Source: Gigantopelta aegis (taxonomy: Eukaryota > Mollusca > Gastropoda > Neomphalida > Peltospiridae). Taken from it: a DNA stretch of 64,000 nucleotides. Shown piece after piece: positions 9,441 to 51,500 of this stretch (positions are counted from its first letter, which is position 1; each line of letters opens with the position of its first letter). The stretch is from positions 11,516,973-11,580,972 of the forward strand of contig NC_054713.1 of NCBI RefSeq assembly GCF_016097555.1, given 5' to 3'. The notes under the pieces were generated by a model. The model was not told the DNA's origin. It did no database searches and saw nothing but the letters and a program-made list of their open reading frames with translations. The position numbers were made by a program, and so were the translations under genes.

Positions 9441-25998
<16,558 letters not shown>

Positions 25999-36503: not shown

Positions 36504-39500
36504 CTAGAAAGAAGGAATATCTGATGGTATTATCTCATGCATATTCTACATGACTTCCAAATGGTTAATGTTACGTCACGCACGATTCCCATTTAAGATT
36601 CTATTGCATTGCTCTGTGATTTTGCGAACCCATAAATCATGATATTGCACTGGTTCCAGTGTAAAACGGGGAATCCCCTCAGCATTGACCAATGATCGAC
36701 AGAATTCAGAAGTTGTGGTGTCTTACAGATAGTGGTGTCGTGTTTCACATAGTACAATATATTTGTGCTTACTAGATTGCTTGTAAACAGGCCTAGTTTG
36801 AGTATTTCTTTTTAAAATTAAATAACTGAAGTAATATGATAAGACCATGTTAATTATATATGGAATGTGAAAATTAAATATCAACCTCAGCCTCTGGCCT
36901 CGGTCCATGTAATTATTTTCACTCCATAAAACATCATATTGGTCTCAACACAGTGCCATAATTACTTAATATTACCTAAAAATGTGATTAAAGTTAAAAG
37001 ATGGTTTTTAGCAACACCACCAGAGCACATTGCTTTATTAATCAATGGCTACTGGAAGGAAGGAAATGTTTTATTTAACGAAGCACTCAACACATTTTAT
37101 TTACGGTTATATGGCGTCAGACATATGATTAAGGACCACACAGATATTGAGAGATGAAAACCGCTGTCACCACTTCATGGGCTACTCATTTCTTTGATAT
37201 ACCAGTCATGGTGCACTGGCTGGAATGAGAAATAGCCCAAAGGGCCCACCGATGGGGATCGATTCCAGACCGACCGCGCATTGAGCGAGTGCTTTACCAC
37301 TGGGCTACGTCCTGCCCTCACTGGCCACTGGATGTTCAACATTTGGGAATTTCCACGTATAGTCTTAAAGCATAAGTGTATGAGACAAGGGGCAACTGCC
37401 CCCCCCCCCCCCCCCCCCCCCCCATATGCTCTAGCAAATTCTAAAATTCAGGCAAAAAGGACAGCGCTAGTCGGACAAAATGAGCTAGACTGAAACCTTT
37501 TCACTGTATATTTCCATCATTCTACACACAACATTACTTGTAATCCATGTAAAAATGTGTAGTGATTCGTTTGCAAGCTTATATAGCTGTTTGGCAGTAA
37601 TGTTAAAATGAATAAATGTTGTTATCCAGATTCAGGAATTTTTACATTTAATTTGGATAAAAATCAGCCTGCGCCCTCTTCTTCACCTACAACAATGGGA
37701 GTCTGTACAGTGGGTACACCTACATGTATGTCTTGGAAAAAACCCAATGTTTTTTATATTATTAGTATGGGATTTTTTATTTGCACTTTCTAACAGACAG
37801 CCAGTGCACCACGACTGGTATATCAAAGGCCGTGGTATGTGCTATCCTGTCTATGGGATGGTACATATAAAAGATCCCTTGCTACTAATCGAAAAGAGTA
37901 GCCCATGAAGTGGCGACAGTGGGTTTTCTCCCTCAATATCTGTGTGGTCCTTAACCATATGTCCGACGCCATATAACCGTCAATAAAATGTATTGAATGC
38001 GTCGTTAAATAAAACATTTCCATTTCTAACAGACAGAACATCTCATACTGTTACCAAGGTCTTTGATGTACCAGTCGTGGTGCACTGACTGAGATGGAAA
38101 ATATCCAGTCAGAGAACAGGACCACCAAGGGGATTTGATCCTTCAACCCCAGCACCTCAGCTGAGCACTCTTCCAGCTGAGCTACAACCCTACCACTAAA
38201 TAACAACATAAAATCAATGATAAATGACCCTCTAATAGCTTTATGAGAAATACTATACATATCAACACAGACAGGGTACGACAATGTCCAGGGTAAGTTT
38301 TATTATTTCAAAGTTTGCTTTTCTTTAATGACACCACTAGATTATATTGATTTATTGATTATTGGCTATTGGATGTAAATGGAGAAAACTTGAGTGTTTT
38401 CTCTTTTATAGATACATTACCTGTCCTCAAACAAGTGCACCTCCCCCCCACGCAAGTGGTCTGGTCCGAACATCCCAACAGCCAATGGGATGGCCTAAAT
38501 TCTTCTACTGCATACTGCTCTCTAGTTCCGGTCACATGACTGTAACTTCCTTCTTTTTCCCTGAGCGCATCGCACGGAGAACAGGAAGCGGGGAGGCCCG
38601 GGCGGGATGAATCTTGAGGACAGGTAATGTATCTATAAAAGAGAAAACACTCAAGTTTTCTCCATTTCTATAGACATTACCTGTCCTCAAACAAGTGCAG
38701 CATTCAACAGATGGTGGTGGGTGCCGAGATCCGTAGATGCTTGTGATAACTCCCCAACCGGAAAGAGGCTGACTAGTGGAAGAAATAAGGCCAACCTTGG
38801 TAAGCCCTCATCCTAGGGATGCCCGTCACAGACCAATGCAGGTGATGTTAGTAACAACAACCAGAATGGTGGCATCCGTCAGCAGTGGCAGGTACGGCTC
38901 CTAGAACACATGGACCAGGAGGCGGAAGCCACATCTCATGCTGGTTCTGACAGGGTGGGAAGACGTAGCCACCAGGGATGCAGGTGTTAGGTAACCCTCA
39001 CGTATTGAAGTGTTATAGTTTTTTCAATAACAAGCGACAACCTAATGAGGTGCATCCGTCAGAACATTGAACAAAACAAGACCCCCGAGTGTTTTCTGTC
39101 TAGTACACCAAAGATCTGTTAGTTCAATAACGACAACCAATAACCACATGCAGTGCAGGGTAAAGGTTATCGAGACAAAAGTTCCGGCACCAGTACGTGA
39201 ACTGTGCAAAAGAACAAAAGTCTAAGCAATCCTCATCTGTCTATTCGATGGACATCTCGGTATGCAGCCCAGAATCAGACAGACATCAACGGCGACGAGG
39301 ACGGCTTGTATTCAACAGAGTCTGTGCAGCAACAACCGGACCCAGATGATGGAACCCCTCAACGTCTTCTGTGGTGACATCCCTCAGATAATAGTTGGCG
39401 AAGATGGAGTCCGTAGCCCAGAACCAACCAGTGATAATGTGCTGAATGGGTGTGTTGCAGTGCAGGGACATCGTGGCAGCCAAGGCACGGAGTTCATGCG

Positions 39501-42500
39501 GATTAGAAGCAGCAGACGGAGCAGGTAAACCCTCCTTCTGATAGGCGGTCAGGATAGAAGACCGGATCCAGGTGGCCACCGTGTTCTTGGTAAGGTCCCT
39601 CAACCGACTCTGGTTACAGGAAAGGAAAAGTCTTTTGCGATGTTGTCGAAAAGATCTGGTCCTCTCGATGTACTGGTGCAGGGCTCTGACAGGGCACAAC
39701 GCCAAGTCCTCAACGTCCGCCGGACCAACGATAGAGGAGAGGGCCTGCACAACATACGAACGAGGCGCTTGGTCTGGTAACTGATTCTTTGCAACAAAGT
39801 TCATGAGTAACCCCAAGTTGACTGCACGCCGATCTTGGTGAAAACGTACCAAGTCTACATCAAGAGCATGGAGTTCTGAGACACGGGCAGCCGTGGCAAA
39901 AACCGAGTAAAAAAACACCGTCTTCCGCATCAAGTCTTGCAGGGAAGAGGATTCGATCGGCTCATAAGGTGCGGTCGATAACGCTCGTAACACCAGATTC
40001 AGGTCCCATCTTGGTGGCCGAAACCGGTGTACTTGATCATCAAGGCGAAACCCTTTGATCATCTTATGGATCTCAGGAATACCCGATAACTTCGTTCCAG
40101 TAGCGACATCACGAACAGTAGCGATGACCGAAACGTACCCAGCGATGGTAGACCCCTTTAATCGTAAAGTGGTCCGCAGATACAGCCAAAAAACCCAGCA
40201 AGACGAAGTATCTGGATCGTCTGAGGTTTGAGGTTTTGCCGGAAAACACCCTCGGTGAAAGCAAAGCCATCTGACGTTAGTAGTAGATGATCTGTGCGCT
40301 TTCAAAATGGCCGCCGTAGAATGTGAAGAAAAACCTTTCTTTCTCAAACTCTTGGCGATAAAGTCCACGCGTGCAGTTGGAACAACTGCGGACGTGGATG
40401 GTATAGTCTTGACGTGGGATGCAGCAAATACAGATGCATCCCAGTCTGGCAGCGGTAAAGGATGTGGATCGGCAAGACGTATTAGATCTGGATACCACAT
40501 CCTGGATGGCCACATTGGAGCAATGAGTAACAGGCGACAATGGTACAGCTGAAACCTCTGAAGCACCCTTGGAAGGAGGATTCGTGGAGGAAAAGCGTAC
40601 GCGTCCATCTGTTCCCAGCTGATGGCCAAGGCGTCGAGATCCAGAGCTTCGGGATCCAGCACACCGGAGACACGTAAACCCTCAGCTGATGGTTGAATCG
40701 TGTGGCGAAGAGATCGATGTTTGGTGTCCAAAGTCTGTCGCACACCCATCGAAACGCTTCGGGATGGAGCATCCATTCCGTCGGCTGTGGAGACGACGGC
40801 CGAGGACAGTGTGTCGACTAGTACATTGGAAACCCCTGGAATATGGCGAGCCCGAAGTTGCAACGGAATCTCGTCAACCAGCTTGTAGAGACGATAAGAA
40901 GTCAACTGCAGCAGACTGCTGGAGTGGGTTCCGCCCTGACGGTTGTATATATAAGCCACCGCGGTAGTACTGTCTGTGGCTACCATGAGAGAGGCGCCTG
41001 ACAGCATCTCTCGCCAATGAAAGATGACGTAAACTGACAACACATCTCCAACAGGTTGATGTGTAGATCGGCTTCATCTGGAAACCCACAGCCACCAACA
41101 GGGACTGGACTGCAAGGCGACTGGTAAACCGGATCAGCAAATCTGCGTTTATTGTACTGAATGCATGGATTCAGAAACAAACTGGATACCGCGACCTCTA
41201 AGCATAAAATGTTGCGGCCGACGTCAAAATTACTATTGCAATGATACTTCATGAAACAGTAATAGAGTGATTCAGGAATCAAGACTCGGAAACAGCGACC
41301 CCGTGATACAGGCAAGAGCCAAGACAGCGTAGCAACTCGCTACGCTACATGCCCGATATACCTGGAAGTGAAGCAACGCAAAAACAGCAACCGGCTAAAA
41401 TCCACGGCCGTCACACCACCGGTGCGAAACCAGCAGCAGAGACCATCTAGACAGCATCGGTCACGAACTTCTGGCGGTAACAACAGTAAACGTCAGTGAG
41501 TTGATAAGCCGCAATGAACCATAGGAAAAACGGGTGACGGTAAAACCCCCGTACCACGTGATGGCAACTGGATAACTTCCGGAACCAGCGGAAGTAGCGA
41601 CGTCTTGCATCGCCACCGGATATAGAGAACGATCTGCCGAATGTCGCTGAACCTTCCTCGAACAAGAGAATATCGGTGCACGGGATCTCAACACAAGTGA
41701 CCGGACCAGTAGACTTTCTTCGTCACCAACCCGGAACGCTTGTAAACGTCGACCCCTTCACGGCAAAGAGCCGTATGTAGACCACAGGTCTGCCAAGATT
41801 ACCGGCTTGTGCTGAAAGTCAAGAATGGATCGCTTCAGGCAAGTTCGGTGACGATAGTGTGCAATCGTAGTGCACATCGACGTCACGGAAGATATAAGGT
41901 AGACCAACATCAAGAGTCGACGGCTAGAACAAGGCATATCCTCTGGCATCCTGCACATGAGGAGTTATGGTCGCCATGTACAACATGTACGGCTGAACTG
42001 AAGCCATCGACAGGACACGTTTGCCAATCTGTAAGTTCTAGGAAGACGTCTGGTCCCCGCCGGAAACAGCGTCATCCAAGGCCGGCGTCACACCGTTTGA
42101 AGGATAGGTTGAAGACGGGATAAGTAGTTTTTACGTTCGTTGTGACGAATGGGGAACGGCAACAAACGAAGTCTAATCAAGTAAACCGACATCGGATCAG
42201 TCCTCAACGGAAACCTTCTAGAATGGTGCGAACGTGGACTGTGAAGTGTACGAAAGCATATACACCGCAGCGACGACAAACAGGCACAGCCATGTGGGTC
42301 ACTGCGGTCCGGATCTTCTATAACGGAAGGTGCCGACGCATCATCTGGGAAAATCGGTCAGTAACTGGCACAGGCACTTCGATCCAATGTACTGGCTGCA
42401 TCGGAAACCACGGACCGTGGACGGTCCCGTCAGGCGCCGTGTAACCTGAACGCCGAATCAGCTGCCGACTGGTGTGGACGGTACGATGTACACGGACCGG

Positions 42501-45500
42501 CAGGAGCCGGTGGAAAGCACTTTGGACACTGCACCACTTCGATCGATCACGGGACGACGGTAACCGGAACGGTGAGCCGATGACGCAATTTTCCAATTCG
42601 TTACAGGGCTCCGTCTGCTTGCTGGAACACGATACGCACGGGCCCAGTTACTGGTAGCCGTGTAAACCGACGGGGGCCTGTGGCAGCCCAACGATCGAAT
42701 GCCGATATCTGCCGGTGGATGGAACCTCCGTGGCGATAATCGAACCCTCTTGGCTGAAACCGGTGGATGGGCCAGCGGCGGTAGCATATCAATATGGACA
42801 GCCAGACAATCCCTCAGTGACAAGTGGTCCGCCGCATCCAGATCTTCCAGCACCGCATGAACCGATACATCATCAGAAAGTCACGTAGCACCGTGAACAG
42901 GCCAGTCGCTCTGGTCATGGCCCGATGGAGATACCGGAGAACCGGGACCGTGGGCGGTCCCTTGTGGATACCAGAGGAACGGATGACCACATCGTCGTTG
43001 GATGTGGCAAGGACGCAACATGGCGTAGACAGCCGCCAAGCAATCCCTCATAGTCATATGGTCCGTAGAGTCGGCTCTTCAATGACAGATGCCGCAGGCG
43101 CTTCATCACCAAAGTCTCGTAGAACTCGAGCACAGGCCAATCGATGTACCGTAATGGAAGCCGCTGGTTAAACCGGACCGTGGATGGTCCCGTCTAGCCC
43201 TCGGAGGCCTTGGAAGCCACATCAACTGAAGGTTTGGCGCTGACGATCCTATGGAACCCGTAGGGAGCCATACAGGTCATGTGGAACGGCTACGGTCCCG
43301 GCTCCGATGCGCCGAAGGGGACTTCCCCGCCGAAGATCGGTGAGCCTTGGGAATCCGTGGAGCGTCTATCTGAATGAGCCGGCTTCTTAGAGGGGGGCTG
43401 CGTAGAGAACGCAGGCCTGTCATCCGAAGTCCTAAGTAACGGTGGAGCTGAAGAAGCCGCACCCCCTGACGAGGGGACTGGAACCGGGACCTGACCCCGA
43501 ACTCGCCGATTTAGGTAAGGTCGCCATTGACGCCATTGTTTCTTCCAGCATGGTCGGTAGAATTGAACGTAAACTCTCTTACCGCCACGGAGTCAGCAAT
43601 CGAAGGCGAAGATTCCACCTTCTTGTTCCTCGAAGATTCCACCTTCTTGGTCCTCCTGACACCACCTTCAGGAAGCCGCGAACTCGACATCAGACAAGCC
43701 CGCACAAAGGTCGCATCTAGAAGTGAGGCACACGAACACGACAACCTGGGTCGCCGCCGGCTAACTTCTTCCAGCGTAACACGCTCGAACTAGTCGCCTG
43801 AACATTATCAGATATGATAATAGTAATTTTTCAATCTGTGAAAAGAAAGAAAATACCAACCATAAACACAAATACAAAGCCGGTAAATAAAGACGCCATT
43901 TTGCAAAATGGCGTCCGACACGACAACCGGCGATATAACAACATTCATGTAATTAACACTTTGCAAGTCAAGCGAAATACGCGAAAGACATATGAAAGCA
44001 ACCGAAGCAACGAAAGCTAACGAAAAATTAAGGGGAAAACCATTTCACCCCAAACACAAAGCCAGTCAACACAGACGCCATTTTGCAATGGCGTCCGACA
44101 CGACAACCGGCAATATAAACAACATTTCATGTAATTAAACGCTTGGAAGTCAAGTGAAATACGCGAAAAGAACATACGAAAGCTAATGAAAACGAAGGTG
44201 AAAAACATTTCACCCAAACACTAATACAAAACCAAAGGTCTTATAAAAGTTGACTCCAAACAGAGCCAAGCAAAAGGACGTCCAGACCCTTTAGCGAAGA
44301 GAAAAAGAAGGAAGTTACAGTCATGTGACCGGAACTAGAGAGCAGTATGCAGTAGAAGAATTTAGGCCATCCCATTGGCTGTTGGGATGTTCGGACCAGA
44401 CCACTTGCGTGGGGGGGAGGTGCACTTGTTTGAGGACAGGTAATGTCTATAGAAACTGTATTTTGGTAATTCTGACAAAGTTTTAGAGAGTAAACCCACT
44501 AGATATTTCATTTAGCAGCAAGGGATCTTTTATATATGCACTTTCCCATTGACAAGATAGCACATACCACAGTCTTTGATGTACCAGTCGTAGTGCACTT
44601 GCTGGAACAAGAAATAGCCCATAGGTCCCACTGACGGGGATCGATCCTAGACCGACCATGCATCAGGTGAGCGCTTTACCATTAGGCTACATCCAGCTCC
44701 ATTAGCATTTCAAATACATACATGCTGTTACAACACCCACCACCAAAAAAAAACTAAACAACCATGGCATAAAATTATATATATTTTTTTGTGTTCCTTA
44801 ATTTAGCCCATGCATGACTACCTTACCTAAATATCTGACATGCCAGGTTGGGGGTATTTCTGTATATTTTTTGTAGAACACCAACATCATTGGGGGCTGA
44901 GAGCCACCACCACCCCTCTCATTTCCATATACCTCTTCCCTGAAAACCGAAGAAGAGATATCTTTTGATTAATACATCAGTAATATAAATTGAATATATG
45001 ATTTATGTACCATTACCTACCCAACTACCTATAAATTATATCAAACAGTTTAAAGTTTTTTTTGTTAACATCACCACTAGAGCACATTGATTTGTTAATC
45101 ATCGGCTATTGGATGTCAAACATTTGGTCATTATGACAGGGCCCATCCTGTTCATTGCCAAATTAGCCAATTGCTAAATAAATGTGTATCCAAAATGACT
45201 ACAAACTTTGAGTTTTTAGCTCATAAATATTCCTTAAACTAATCACATTTCAATAACTTTCAAGGAAATATTCTATATATCTGAACGTTTAACATCACAG
45301 ACTCATTTTTCACTCTATTATAATAACTTTATCCAAAATGTGTTACAGGTTGGGAGATTAACCAAACTTAGTGTCCATTTTTACAGGTTTGTGACTTTAA
45401 ACTGAAAGTGAAAGTACTTTGTATTGAGCTGCATCCAGTACTCCAGCTGTTCAGTGATGCGTTGTTTCCCTCCTCATGCCGAGAGATCCGTGACGAACAG

Positions 45501-48500
45501 ACCCGAGTTGAACGAGCACGTTTCGTCGGCTTTATCTTCATCCTCTTCGCAACCTGCCTTGTTCTTGAAGTCAATGTAGTCAGCATAGGTTGTTCTGAAA
45601 CAATCAAAAACAAAAGAAATGTTTTATTTAACAAAACACTCAAAACATTTATATGTATGATGATATAGCGTCAGACATATGGTTATGGACCACACAGATA
45701 TTGAGAGAGGAAACCCGCTGTCGCCACTTCATGGGTCTACTCTTTCCGGGGGGGATTAGCAGCAAGGGATCTTTTTATATGCAACCCATCCCACAGACAG
45801 GATTTTACATATCACGGCCTTTTTGATATACCAGTTGTGGTGCCACTGGCTTGAACAAGAAATAGCCCAATAGGGCCCACCGACGGGGATCGATCCCACA
45901 CACGACCGCGCATCGAGCAGCGATGTAACCACAGGGCTACGTCCCGCCCTAGTTGTTCTGAAGAAGATTTTTTTTTTTTTTTTTTTTTTTTTTACATAAG
46001 ATGATGTGAAGGGAGGTGACAAGAGACAAGGTAAGTGGTAAGGGCATAGAAGGGCAAGGCAAAACAGGGCGGTTTAATGTTGCTCGCCAAATCTCCAAAG
46101 AAAAAAAGTNNNNNNNNNNNNNNNNNNNNNNNNNNNNNNNNNNNNNNNNNNNNNNNNNNNNNNNNNNNNNNNNNNNNNNNNNNNNNNNNNNNNNNNNNNN
46201 NNNNNNNNNNNNNNNNNNNNNNNNNNNNNNNNNNNNNNNNNNNNNNNNNNNNNNNNNNNNNNNNNNNNNNNNNNNNNNNNNNNNNNNNNNNNNNNNNNNN
46301 NNNNNNNNNGTTACAGATTCAGGAATTTAAATTTATTTGGATTATAAAAATCAGCCTGCGCCCTTCGTCTTCACCTCAACAATGGGAGTCGGTACAGGGG
46401 GTACACACATGTATGTTATTGGAAAAAACCAATGTTTTTTGATAGAGTAGTATGGGATTTTTATCTGCAGCTTTCTAACAGACCAGCCGGCACCACGATG
46501 GTATATCAAAGGGCCGTGGTATGTGCTTCCCTGTCATAATGGGATGGTACATATAAAAGATCCCATTGATGACTAACTCGAAAGAGTAGCCCCCGAAGTG
46601 GCGACAAGTGGGTTTTCTCCCTCAATATCGGTGTTGGCCTTAACCATATGTCCGACGCCACTTAACCTGTCAAAAAATGTGGGTTGAATGCAGTCGTTCG
46701 TTAAATAAAACATTTCCATTTCTAACAGACAGAACATCTCATACTGTTACCAAGGTCTTTGATGTACCAGTCGTGGTGCACTGACTGAGATGGAAAATAT
46801 CCAGTCAGAGAACAGGACCACCAAGGGGATTTGATCCTTCAACCCCAGCACCTCAGCTGAGCACTCTTCCAGCTGAGCTACAACCCTACCACTAAATAAC
46901 AACATAAAATCAATGATAAATGACCCTCTAATAGCTTTATGAGAAATACTATACATATCAACACAGACAGGGTACGACAATGTCCAGGGTAAGTTTTATT
47001 ATTTCAAAGTTTGCTTTTCTTTAATGACACCACTAGATTATATTGATTTATTGATTATTGGCTATTGGATGTAAACTGTATTTTGGTAATTCTGACAAAG
47101 TTTTAGAGAGTAAACCCACTAGATATTTCATTTAGCAGCAAGGGATCTTTTATATATGCACTTTCCCATTGACAAGATAGCACATACCACAGTCTTTGAT
47201 GTACCAGTCGTAGTGCACTTGCTGGAACAAGAAATAGCCCATAGGTCCCACTGACGGGGATCGATCCTAGACCGACCATGCATCAGGTGAGCGCTTTACC
47301 ATTAGGCTACATCCAGCTCCATTAGCATTTCAAATACATACATGCTGTACAACACCCACCACCAAAAAAACTAAACAAACATGGCATAAAATTAGATATA
47401 TTTTTGTGTTCCTTAATTTAGCCCATGCATGACTTACCTAAATATCTGACATGCCAGGTTGGGGGTATTTCTGTATATTTTTTGTAGAACACCAACATCA
47501 TTGGGGGCTGAGAGCCACCACCACCCCTCTCATTTCCATATACCTCTTCCCTGAAAACCGAAGAAGAGATATCTTTTGATTAATACATTCAGTAATATAA
47601 ATTGAATATATGAATTTATGTACCATTACCTACCCAACTACCTATATAATTATATCAAACAGTTAAAGTTTGTTTTTGTTTAACATCACCACTAGAGCAC
47701 ATTGATTTGTTAATCATCGGCTATTGGATGTCAAACATTTGGTCATTATGACAGGGCCCATCCTGTTCATTGCCAAATTAGCCAATTGCTAAATAAATGT
47801 GTATCCAAAATGACTACAAACATTTGAGTTTTTAGCTCATAAAATATTCCTTAAACTAATCACATTTCAATAACTTTCAAGGAAATATTCTATAATATCT
47901 GAACGTTTTAACATCACAGACTATTTTCACTCTATTATAACTTTATCCAAAATGTGTTACAGGTTGGGAGATTAACCAAACTTAGTGTCCATTTTTACAG
48001 GTTTGTGACTTTAAACTGAAAGTGAAAGTACTTTGTATTGAGCTGCATCCAGTACTCCAGCTGTTCAGTGATGCGTTGTTTCCTCCATGCCGAGAGATCC
48101 GTGACGAACAGACCCGAGTTGAACGAGCACGTCGTCGGCTTTATCTTCATCAGCTTCACCTGCTTGTTCTTGAAGTCAATGTAGTCAGCATAGTTGTTCT
48201 GAAACAATCAAAACAAAAGAAATGTTTTATTTAACAAAACACTCAAAACATTTTATTTATGATTATATAGCGTCAGACATATGGTTATGGACCACACAGA
48301 TATTGAGAGAGGAAACCCGCTGTCGCCACTTCATGGGCTACTCTTTCCGATTAGCAGCAAGGGATCTTTTATATGCACCATCCCACAGACAGGATTTTAC
48401 ATATCACGGCCTTTGATATACCAGTTGTGGTGCACTGGCTTGAACAAGAAATAGCCCAATGGGCCCACCGACGGGGATCGATCCCACACCGACCGCGCAT

Positions 48501-51500
48501 CGAGCCAGCGATGTACCACAGGGCTACGTCCCGCCCTAGTTGTTCTGAAGAAGAATTTTTTTTTTTTTTTTTTTTTTTTTACATAAGATGATGTGAAGGG
48601 AGGTGACAAGAGACAAGGTAAGTGGTAAGGGCATAGAAGGGCAAGGCAAAACAGGGCAGGGTTTAAGCTGTTGCTCGCCAAATCTCCAAATGCAAATTAA
48701 AGTTTAATTTGGCGAATATATTTCATTACTAACTCGCCAATAAGCTAATTCGAAAATCATTGGTCATTCATAGATGTGGATGTACCGCCATTTTGGCTGT
48801 TTCGCTAAATGAAACTTGAATTTGAAGATGGATTTTGTTAGCTAATATTTTCTGGCCTTCAACCTAAACTCTGAACAGATCAGGTAGAACAGAATAAGCT
48901 GGGGCAGAAAAGGGCAGTGCAAGGCAAGGTAAGGTATGGTAAGGTATGGCAAGGAAAGGCAGGGAAGGGTAAGGTAGAACAGGGGCTGGCAGGGAACACA
49001 AAAGAACAAAATGGAAAGGAAAGCAAAGCAAAGCAAAGCAAAGCAAAGCAAAGCACAGGTCAGTAAAGAACAAGAGGCTCATGAGGCATGCATTTCTCAC
49101 CTGGTATTAAACTAACCATACTTCTGAAAGTGAACCATAGTAATAATGATTTATCACAGATGAGAATTTGGTTATTAACATAACATATGGACAAATGAAG
49201 ATGTGCATACAAATGTATTTTAAGCTGAACAAATAAATGATCCACTTTTATCACTGACAGCATATGCCTTGACATTTTGTAAATTTTAATTTCACCTGAG
49301 ACACAATTATGAAATAACTGGTGTAAACTGGTGATGGTCAGAGTCATCAGAGGATCATTTGTATCAGCTTTGTGACTGAAATCTATGCAGTAGAACTTGA
49401 GAACAAGTCGAAAATCTCTCAGCCAATCAGAGGCTAGGGTAGCCATATTAGATTTTAAATTGTTGTGAAAAATAACAACACCTGGTTGAAATCTGCACGG
49501 TAAAACATGACAGGCCATATTGGATCTTGAATTGGCCCCAAAAATACCAACACTTGGTCAGGTCCTTGAGAGGATCATTTGTACTTGAGAAGTGAAAAAT
49601 GTCTTGGTCAGAGGCCAGGGTTGGACACCTAGGATTTTGAACAAGCCATAAAAATAACAACACTTGGTCAGGGCCGTGGAAGGATCATTAGGACCAAGTT
49701 TGGTTGAAATCTGCCTGGTGGAACTGGAGAAGATATAAAAGATGCAAAGAAAACTTGATGAATGCCAGACGGGTGTCATTGCATAAGCTCCATTCAGCTT
49801 TCGGGCCAGGTGAGCTAATAAGCCAAGACGAGAAAGAGATAGAGGATAATAAACAAGTTACCAGTTATTATCAAATTTAAGTCCCGAGTGAAATAATGTT
49901 CAGTTGTCACGAGCTTTAGCTTTATATATTCACGAGGGACATAAATTTGATAATAACTGGTACCGTGTTTGTTATTCTATTTATTACCTCAGCTACTTTT
50001 TCTCTAGAAGCCTTTATTTTCGACGCACATGCACGAAAGGCCAACCTGTATAGAAACGATGTAAACCACTTTGCGCACTTTTCTGAGAATTGCTATAACT
50101 TAGTAATTTAATCACGTTCATAAAAAATTCTAAAAAACCAAGTGTTCTTTATTCTGCTACAAAATCTATAAAGAATTGCATTAAAATGACATTTTGTTAT
50201 AAATTTAACACCAAAAATAGAGAGCCGTAAACGCAAATTCCTTAAACTACATGACGTCATTTTGTGTTTGCCAAATCGTGATGACGTCATATTTAGTACC
50301 GACACGGTCATTGGTTTGTAATCGTCAAATCGTCCAATAGTATTGTTCGTTAGACCATTGCAGAATATTTTTTTCTCACTGAGAAAATATGGAAAATATT
50401 TTCCCCATTATGAGTGACCGCTGGGGTAATAAATAGAGATTAATACATTTTTTTTATTATTATTATTTTTTTTTTCTTTCTTTCTTTCGTTTTATTATTA
50501 TTTATTATTTTTTTTCTCTCACTAAGACAGGATCGAAGTCGCAGTAACCCAATTGGCTAATTAACCAGCCAATAAACATCGTTAGATAATCAACCAAGAT
50601 AGGACACCACTAATTATCGCCTATTTTTTGCAGCACTCTCATTGGTCCAATCCAGCCAATCACGGATCAAGAACCCTACTACACCTAACTGTAAATAAAC
50701 TGCACGAATTTGTCTTTGCACCAGTACCATGTTTTTTTTGTTTTTTTTTATTACTGATGCATTCCATCTTAGCTAACTAAGGTAAGTCAACTAGGGTTCC
50801 AGAAGCAAAGACATGCAGGAAAACCAATACCCAACTATCCAGATAGCCTGAAGACAAACCAAGTAAGCCTACTAAAATCCTATATTTAGGGGGCGGGAAT
50901 CAAAATTCTTCTAAGTACCTAGATCGGTGCATATATGTATATATGCATATATGTATACAATTGCTACTTGCCACCATTAGTTTCGTTTTATTGCATTGGT
51001 AATAAAGTTAAGTATGCCAAGCACTAGGCTTTTAAACCAATACCTATACTATAAGGGTTTAACCCTTCAAATTAGATAGCTAGGCTAGTTTAACTCCCCC
51101 TCCGTCATTGTATTCAATGCTATACAAGGACAGAGGGGGATGGGTGGTCATGAATAACCGTTGAACTCACTAGAATAGGGACTTAAGACAATAGGTACAA
51201 CCGTAACACAAAACTAGGATTCACACACAGACTACATGCTCACTGCATCAGTACACAGGGTGCATTGACTAATGATAACAATGCACCCGCCCCCATTTAA
51301 TGGCCCAGCACGTACTCTAATAAGGAACAACACAAAAGAATACCGTTCCGAGTACACAACTGCAATGCACCCGGGGGAAGCTGAACAAAAGAATATCGGC
51401 CTCCCCCACCCAAACCCCCAATACTTGCTGCTGGTAATAACTTGGTACTTGGTGATGCCTCGACCAGAAGTGGTCAGGCCCTTTATAAGGGCCCTATGGG

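Follow-up and report, generated by a model that had tools for sequence, protein, structure and literature searches.

How does a single scaffold come to carry the same host sequence twice, once interrupted by a transposon and once intact? The question is raised by a 64,000-nt stretch of the gastropod Gigantopelta aegis (assembly GCF_016097555.1, contig NC_054713.1, positions 11,516,973 to 11,580,972 of the forward strand), here called the window. A 6,073-nt DIRS1-like element at 38380-44452, followed by its terminal AAA, lies between host flanks that recur without the element at 46698-47348. As judged from the assembled sequence, one chromosome of the sequenced animal very probably carries this element and the other lacks it, the two versions having been set in series across a scaffold gap as a false tandem duplication. 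The features of the locus are as follows.

37622-38379, plus strand: left flank in the filled contig, present in the empty contig too (overlap alignment)
38377-38379, no strand: host target triplet AAA, left of the element; varies among other insertions
38380-44455, minus strand (coding sense): DIRS1-like element, 6073 nt plus terminal AAA
44453-46109, plus strand: right flank in the filled contig up to the gap, with an indel-rich tail (overlap alignment)
46110-46309, no strand: scaffold gap of 200 N
46310-48700, plus strand: head of the empty-version contig, comprising left flank, uninterrupted site and right flank; first ~390 nt indel-rich
47073-47075, plus strand: single AAA at the empty site (empty-site probe)

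Filled and empty versions of the locus

AAA triplets stand around the element (38377-38379 and 44453-44455) and at the empty site (47073-47075), where the empty copy reads ATGTAAACTGTATTTTGG with a single AAA; a sequence-only reading of this DNA had placed all three, and its coordinates proved exact to the base. The left flanks of the two versions are identical over 378 nt (38002-38379 and 46698-47075) and the right flanks over 276 nt (44453-44728 and 47073-47348), giving no difference across the 654 positions beside the site. Across the 1.149-Gb assembly, a 183-nt probe spanning the empty site matched at full length and 100% identity in a single place, with the filled copy matching it as two halves and the runner-up among 40 candidates scored reaching 85% identity; a chance resemblance of the filled and empty copies is therefore excluded. 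The earlier reading had itself raised the possibility that the two copies are different loci, and unrelated loci are ruled out by the same probe, as only the two versions exceed 85% among the 40 candidates.

That reading was silent on the 200-N gap between the versions, the sole run of N in the window and a feature central to their interpretation as alleles. Homology runs in two pairs, 37627-38379 with 46314-47075 and 44453-46099 with 47073-48690, both of which reach within about 10 nt of the gap: the last aligned base of the filled version (46099) pairs with 48690, and the first of the empty version (46314, directly after the gap) pairs with 37627. The sequences bordering this overlap, 37322-37621 on the left (300 nt) and 48700-49040 on the right (341 nt), each have one 100% place genome-wide, the next of 40 scored reaching 88% and 84%, respectively. 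Only the overlap thus appears doubled, as with two contigs of one locus that each run on into the stretch covered by the other. Beyond the 654 identical positions the versions differ in the outer stretches, by 26 substitutions and 68 gap runs. Against four other copies of the short interspersed element (SINE) found here, SINE stretches of the filled contig's tail show 9-10 gap runs, versus 1-2 in the empty copy, and those of the empty contig's head show 16-18, versus 1-2 in the filled copy. Each contig is thus the error-rich one near its own end, and the differences in the outer stretches are probably mostly consensus errors in thinly covered contig ends.

These data suggest how the arrangement could have arisen. 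The assembler would have been unable to merge a 6-kb difference between haplotypes; one contig would have ended about 1.65 kb past the filled site and another begun about 0.77 kb before the empty site; scaffolding would then have placed both overlapping contig ends in series with a 200-N gap, producing a false tandem duplication. The simplest way to produce such a contig break is a 6-kb insertion in the heterozygous state. Alleles falsely assembled as adjoining copies are a known artefact (PMC9516828). In the accessible part of that report, heterotype false duplications are likewise both alleles assembled as separate copies, adjacent in one published example whose legend mentions assembly gaps, whereas here one transposon insertion separates the versions, with no substitution in the 654 adjoining positions.

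Two haplotypes or two copies

A heterozygous insertion is supported by contig ends that overlap at the gap, an exact 6-kb difference, an identical insertion point and unique sequence just outside the overlap. The element's anatomy, the precision of its insertion, the uniqueness of the locus and an overlap that reaches the gap can be read directly from the assembly, from which heterozygosity emerges as the most likely state. The insertion is probably recent and still polymorphic. The earlier claim of a recent, polymorphic insertion in this individual thus gains support from the contig overlap, the precise 6-kb difference and the unique outer flanks, its allelic part being drawn from the assembly.

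Several points weigh against two alleles. The evidence comes from one assembly, where a real tandem duplication would give the same local picture if its inner parts lay in the gap. The versions agree by every base of the 654 positions beside the site, and there is no independent two-haplotype marker, since the 26 substitutions lie among the 68 gap runs and are inseparable from consensus errors. If several animals were pooled, assignment to one individual would be wrong. Against the proposed integration by a tyrosine recombinase, the recombinase domain of the window copy scores under its Pfam cut-off (16.9 versus 27.1 bits). Dating by divergence of the two versions was given up, as many indels fall in the contig tails and 654 identical positions yield no rate. 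The element's termini are probably unsuited to dating too, as they may be copied from an internal complementary region in each cycle.

Of the competing explanations, the best placed is a true tandem duplication that came first, with the element entering one copy later and the unseen parts of each copy lying in the gap. Both versions do stand in tandem on one scaffold, and the true gap size is not fixed by the assembly. This history is nevertheless improbable: the sequences bordering the overlap each have one 100% place in the whole assembly, both missing parts would have to be absent from it, and the overlap is what contig ends would give, each version being error-rich near its own contig end in the stretches compared. 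Less probable again is a somatic (mosaic) or pooled-sample insertion, in which the versions derive from different cells or animals and not from two homologues of one animal. The absence of differences in the 654 nearest positions is what a single haplotype would show, but two germline haplotypes that share a recent ancestor could also be identical over so short a stretch as 654 nt, and each version had enough depth to yield a contig. Very improbable is precise loss of the element by exchange between its two flanking AAA triplets, which would restore a single AAA and make the empty version secondary, as 3 nt is very little homology and the termini, being inverted and not direct repeats, would not favour deletion.

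With a heterozygous insertion as the preferred explanation, the surroundings of the site can be described.

47995-48207, minus strand: Glyco_transf_8 open frame, exon-like; counterpart within 45380-45620 frame-broken

This open frame in the empty contig matches Glyco_transf_8 at E 2.7e-10, and its counterpart in the tail of the filled contig is broken across frames, a state likely caused by consensus errors. The exon-like frame lies about 0.9 kb from the insertion, and the element is probably located within or next to an intron of a gene for a glycosyltransferase. The assembly probably contains a false duplication here, beside a glycosyltransferase-like exon. Elsewhere in the window, successive self-alignments shifted by 66 reveal a long tandem array of 66-base period at 18161-23617.

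Anatomy and coding content of the element

By anatomy the element is DIRS1-like, with inverted terminal repeats (ITRs), a terminal extension, and two internal complementary regions (ICRs) that overlap by 3 nt.

38380-38404, no strand: terminal extension outside the matched ITR; the right extension (rE) in sense orientation
38405-38562, no strand: ITR, window-left (sense 3') copy, 158 nt, 97% complementary to 44298-44455
38614-38667, no strand: ICR, 54/54 complementary to 38377-38430
38665-38699, no strand: ICR, 35/35 complementary to 44421-44455
39286-41073, minus strand: 595-amino-acid open frame with RNase H-like and tyrosine-recombinase stretches
41066-42999, minus strand: middle segment with no DNA match to six relatives bearing reverse transcriptase (RT) and no RT counterpart
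44298-44455, no strand: ITR, window-right (sense 5') copy
44453-44455, no strand: AAA carried by the element (TTT at the sense 5' end), as in about 184 of 190 exact right ends

The two ICRs lie near the window-left end and overlap by TTT at 38665-38667, the circular junction. Coding sense runs on the minus strand, which makes the window-left end, with its extension, the 3' end. Just inside the left end, the extension contains a small inverted repeat at 38382-38403 (GAGAAAAC ... GTTTTCTC), possibly a hairpin at the recombination end. The termini are inverted repeats, unlike the split direct repeats of PAT and Ngaro elements. Ngaro elements are defined by split direct repeats and not by inverted termini. 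Split direct repeats also define PAT, according to the accessible text of PMC3266345, which describes the DIRS1-like layout: ITRs and a right extension, with ICRs that overlap at a 3-bp circular junction and no duplication of the target. The present element shares the ITRs, the two ICRs over a 3-nt circular junction, the right extension, the lack of target-site duplication and a length of about 6 kb with that type (PMC3266345). Its closest counterparts in Table 3 of that source are the DIRS1-like AcDIRS2, XtDIRS2 and XtDIRS3, which have the circular junction AAA, the start TTT, an rE of 28-34 and ICRs of 39-65.

The coding content is less complete. The 595-amino-acid frame alternates between two overlapping frames of a relative, copy L039, and is for this reason probably not a working protein; part of the disruption may be assembly error. 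An RNase H-like stretch remains. The recombinase stretch matches Phage_integrase at E 0.0056 (16.9 bits, under the Pfam cut-off of 27.1), and a PDB sequence search gave no match to it at E up to 1. This region is 90% identical over 388 amino acids to the recombinase frame of L039, itself below the Pfam cut-off. RVT_1 was not found in the 19 minus-strand pieces of the window copy that were scanned.

To place the window copy among its relatives, 20 copies were fetched from the genome, 18 with both exact ends (L052 and L053 have no exact left end). The closest full-length relative among the 18 is 97.6% identical to the window copy. Six of them (L039, L041, L043, L045, L047 and L057) have long frames and share the window copy's two outer parts but not its middle; the other 12 resemble it also in the middle, or in parts of it. 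RVT_1 was detected in all six long-frame relatives, with a stop splitting it in L039. L057 has a pol frame of 740 amino acids, with RT at residues 234-365; only residues 506-740 are matched in the window copy, residues 1-505, RT included, being without counterpart. The pol frames of L039, L043 and L047 (the last in two pieces) are about 99% identical in protein to that of L057, which suggests recent amplification. No Pfam match to a methyltransferase was found at E up to 1 in the part of the six relatives' frames that was scanned.

RT and RNase H are thus present, as in DIRS1-like elements, in relatives with matching termini, whereas the window copy has no RT region and of the two retains only the RNase H-like stretch; no methyltransferase was seen in the frames scanned. 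On its sequence, the window copy reads as a non-autonomous derivative without the RT region and not as an intact DIRS element. The earlier label of a DIRS-like insertion accordingly stands for the anatomy, which is DIRS1-like, and not for an intact element. Because the RT region missing from the window copy is carried by six of 18 relatives between matching termini, mobilization in trans is probable, and the copy is probably one of a derivative group whose movement depends on proteins supplied by RT-bearing relatives.

Target triplets and the polarity of integration

Other copies refine what the AAA triplets represent. Of 190 exact right ends in the genome, about 184 carry AAA as their triplet (searches that did and did not demand AAA gave 369 and 375 hits, each less 185 ICRs; the 190 would include any ICR whose TGGAG is altered). 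Among the 151 exact left ends, only 31 have AAA as the left triplet (302 hits less 151 ICRs, and 182 of the AAA type less 151), a proportion above the 4.4% of AAA in the window. These are counts of exact matches, and diverged copies are missed. The right AAA therefore belongs to the element, while the left triplet is the target's own; the sequence-only reading correctly saw flanking AAA at the filled site and a single AAA at the empty one, and the refinement is that only the right triplet is carried by the element. One of the six right ends without AAA was read (L101, L102; G000:C2:8810880-8816990); with AAT on the left and ACG on the right, it does not fit simple opposite polarity either.

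Two further empty sites bear on precision. Copy L039 sits inside a 71-base tandem satellite, which supplies ready-made empty sites: its empty site reads AAC|TGG, and 22 neighboring satellite junctions were listed, 19 of them gap-free and the other 3 differing by one A in an A run. The empty site at L044 reads GAC|ATG. At both loci the host supplied the left triplet and the insertion added the right AAA; it was precise and free of duplication, as it is for the window copy. The earlier suggestion that precise insertion without a longer target duplication fits tyrosine-recombinase integration thus extends to these sites. AAA as a target duplication is ruled out, since the left triplet varies against an almost invariant right one, and no extra AAA stands in the empty sites of L039 and L044. 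TGG as a 3-nt duplication, which L039 alone would allow, is ruled out by a right flank that varies across 36 sites.

These 36 flank pairs comprise the window copy, 18 of the 20 copies, and 17 of 20 further pairs (3 dropped). They were picked by an exact right end with AAA among 100 places listed, a selection to which the genome-wide counts were not subject; C3 pairs of unusual spacing (82.75, 84.90 and 88.83 Mb), unpaired hits and later C4 pairs were left out. Position -2 of the target is A in 28 sites and +1 is T in 24; +2 and +3 are each G in 16 (one-sided binomial against window composition: 7e-8 for -2 A, 4e-6 for +1 T, 2e-4 for +2 G). The target resembles the element's own junction, AAA|TGG. 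An identical target triplet is favored but not needed, and inheritance of the triplet is polar.

Integration may proceed through a circular intermediate closed at AAA and templated by the ICRs, which a tyrosine recombinase would insert at a target resembling the circle's own junction (NAN|TGG). For the window copy, the proteins would be supplied by an RT-bearing relative with matching termini, because its RT region is missing and its recombinase frame is eroded. The host would keep its own triplet on the extension side, the element supplying AAA on the other. The published model, as set out in the accessible text of PMC3266345, has the 3-bp junction recombine with a genomic triplet identical to it, whereas here only 31 of the 151 exact left ends have a left triplet that matches the junction. 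Xenopus DIRS-like families, in the part of PMC9210276 available, share the TTT/AAA terminal triplet; TTT is reported at both of their ends, whereas here only the sense 5' end has it constantly, the triplet at the 3' end coming from the host.

A tentative proposal, which we consider possible but doubtful, is that the spacer is inherited with a fixed polarity, so that the extension (sense 3') side retains the target triplet and the other side receives the circle's AAA even when the two are unlike. If true, this might be a general rule of DIRS1-like integration, a suggestion we hold just as loosely. Canonical double-strand exchange by tyrosine recombinases over a 3-bp overlap should leave heteroduplexes that segregate both ways at replication. 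Since polarity differs from the two-way sorting of mismatched triplets expected from two-strand exchange, it would fit a one-strand exchange, as for integron cassettes with a single-stranded circle, or strand-biased repair. Table 3 of PMC3266345 has 28 rows, with 10 elements of unlike ends, 2 of which have a 2-bp junction and were set aside; by our own reading of that table, 7 of the 8 informative unlike pairs have a start that is complementary to the junction. In AcasDIRS1, the remaining case, the match is at the end, and this element alone among the eight has an extension on the left but none on the right (PMC3266345). No statement on the polarity of terminal triplets was found in the literature searched, which was weighted towards open access and so offers weak evidence of novelty; the available text of PMC6387122 makes no mention of triplets.

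The element itself belongs to the already known DIRS1-like type, and the finding of a precise, recent, probably heterozygous insertion is well supported. With a filled and an empty site in one assembly, the insertion is seen to have added the element and nothing else, and the pair suggests that the family moved recently. Overall, the polar triplet is the part most worth pursuing: some 150-190 exact ends in this genome, where the triplet is polar and usually mismatched, make the circle-integration model testable.

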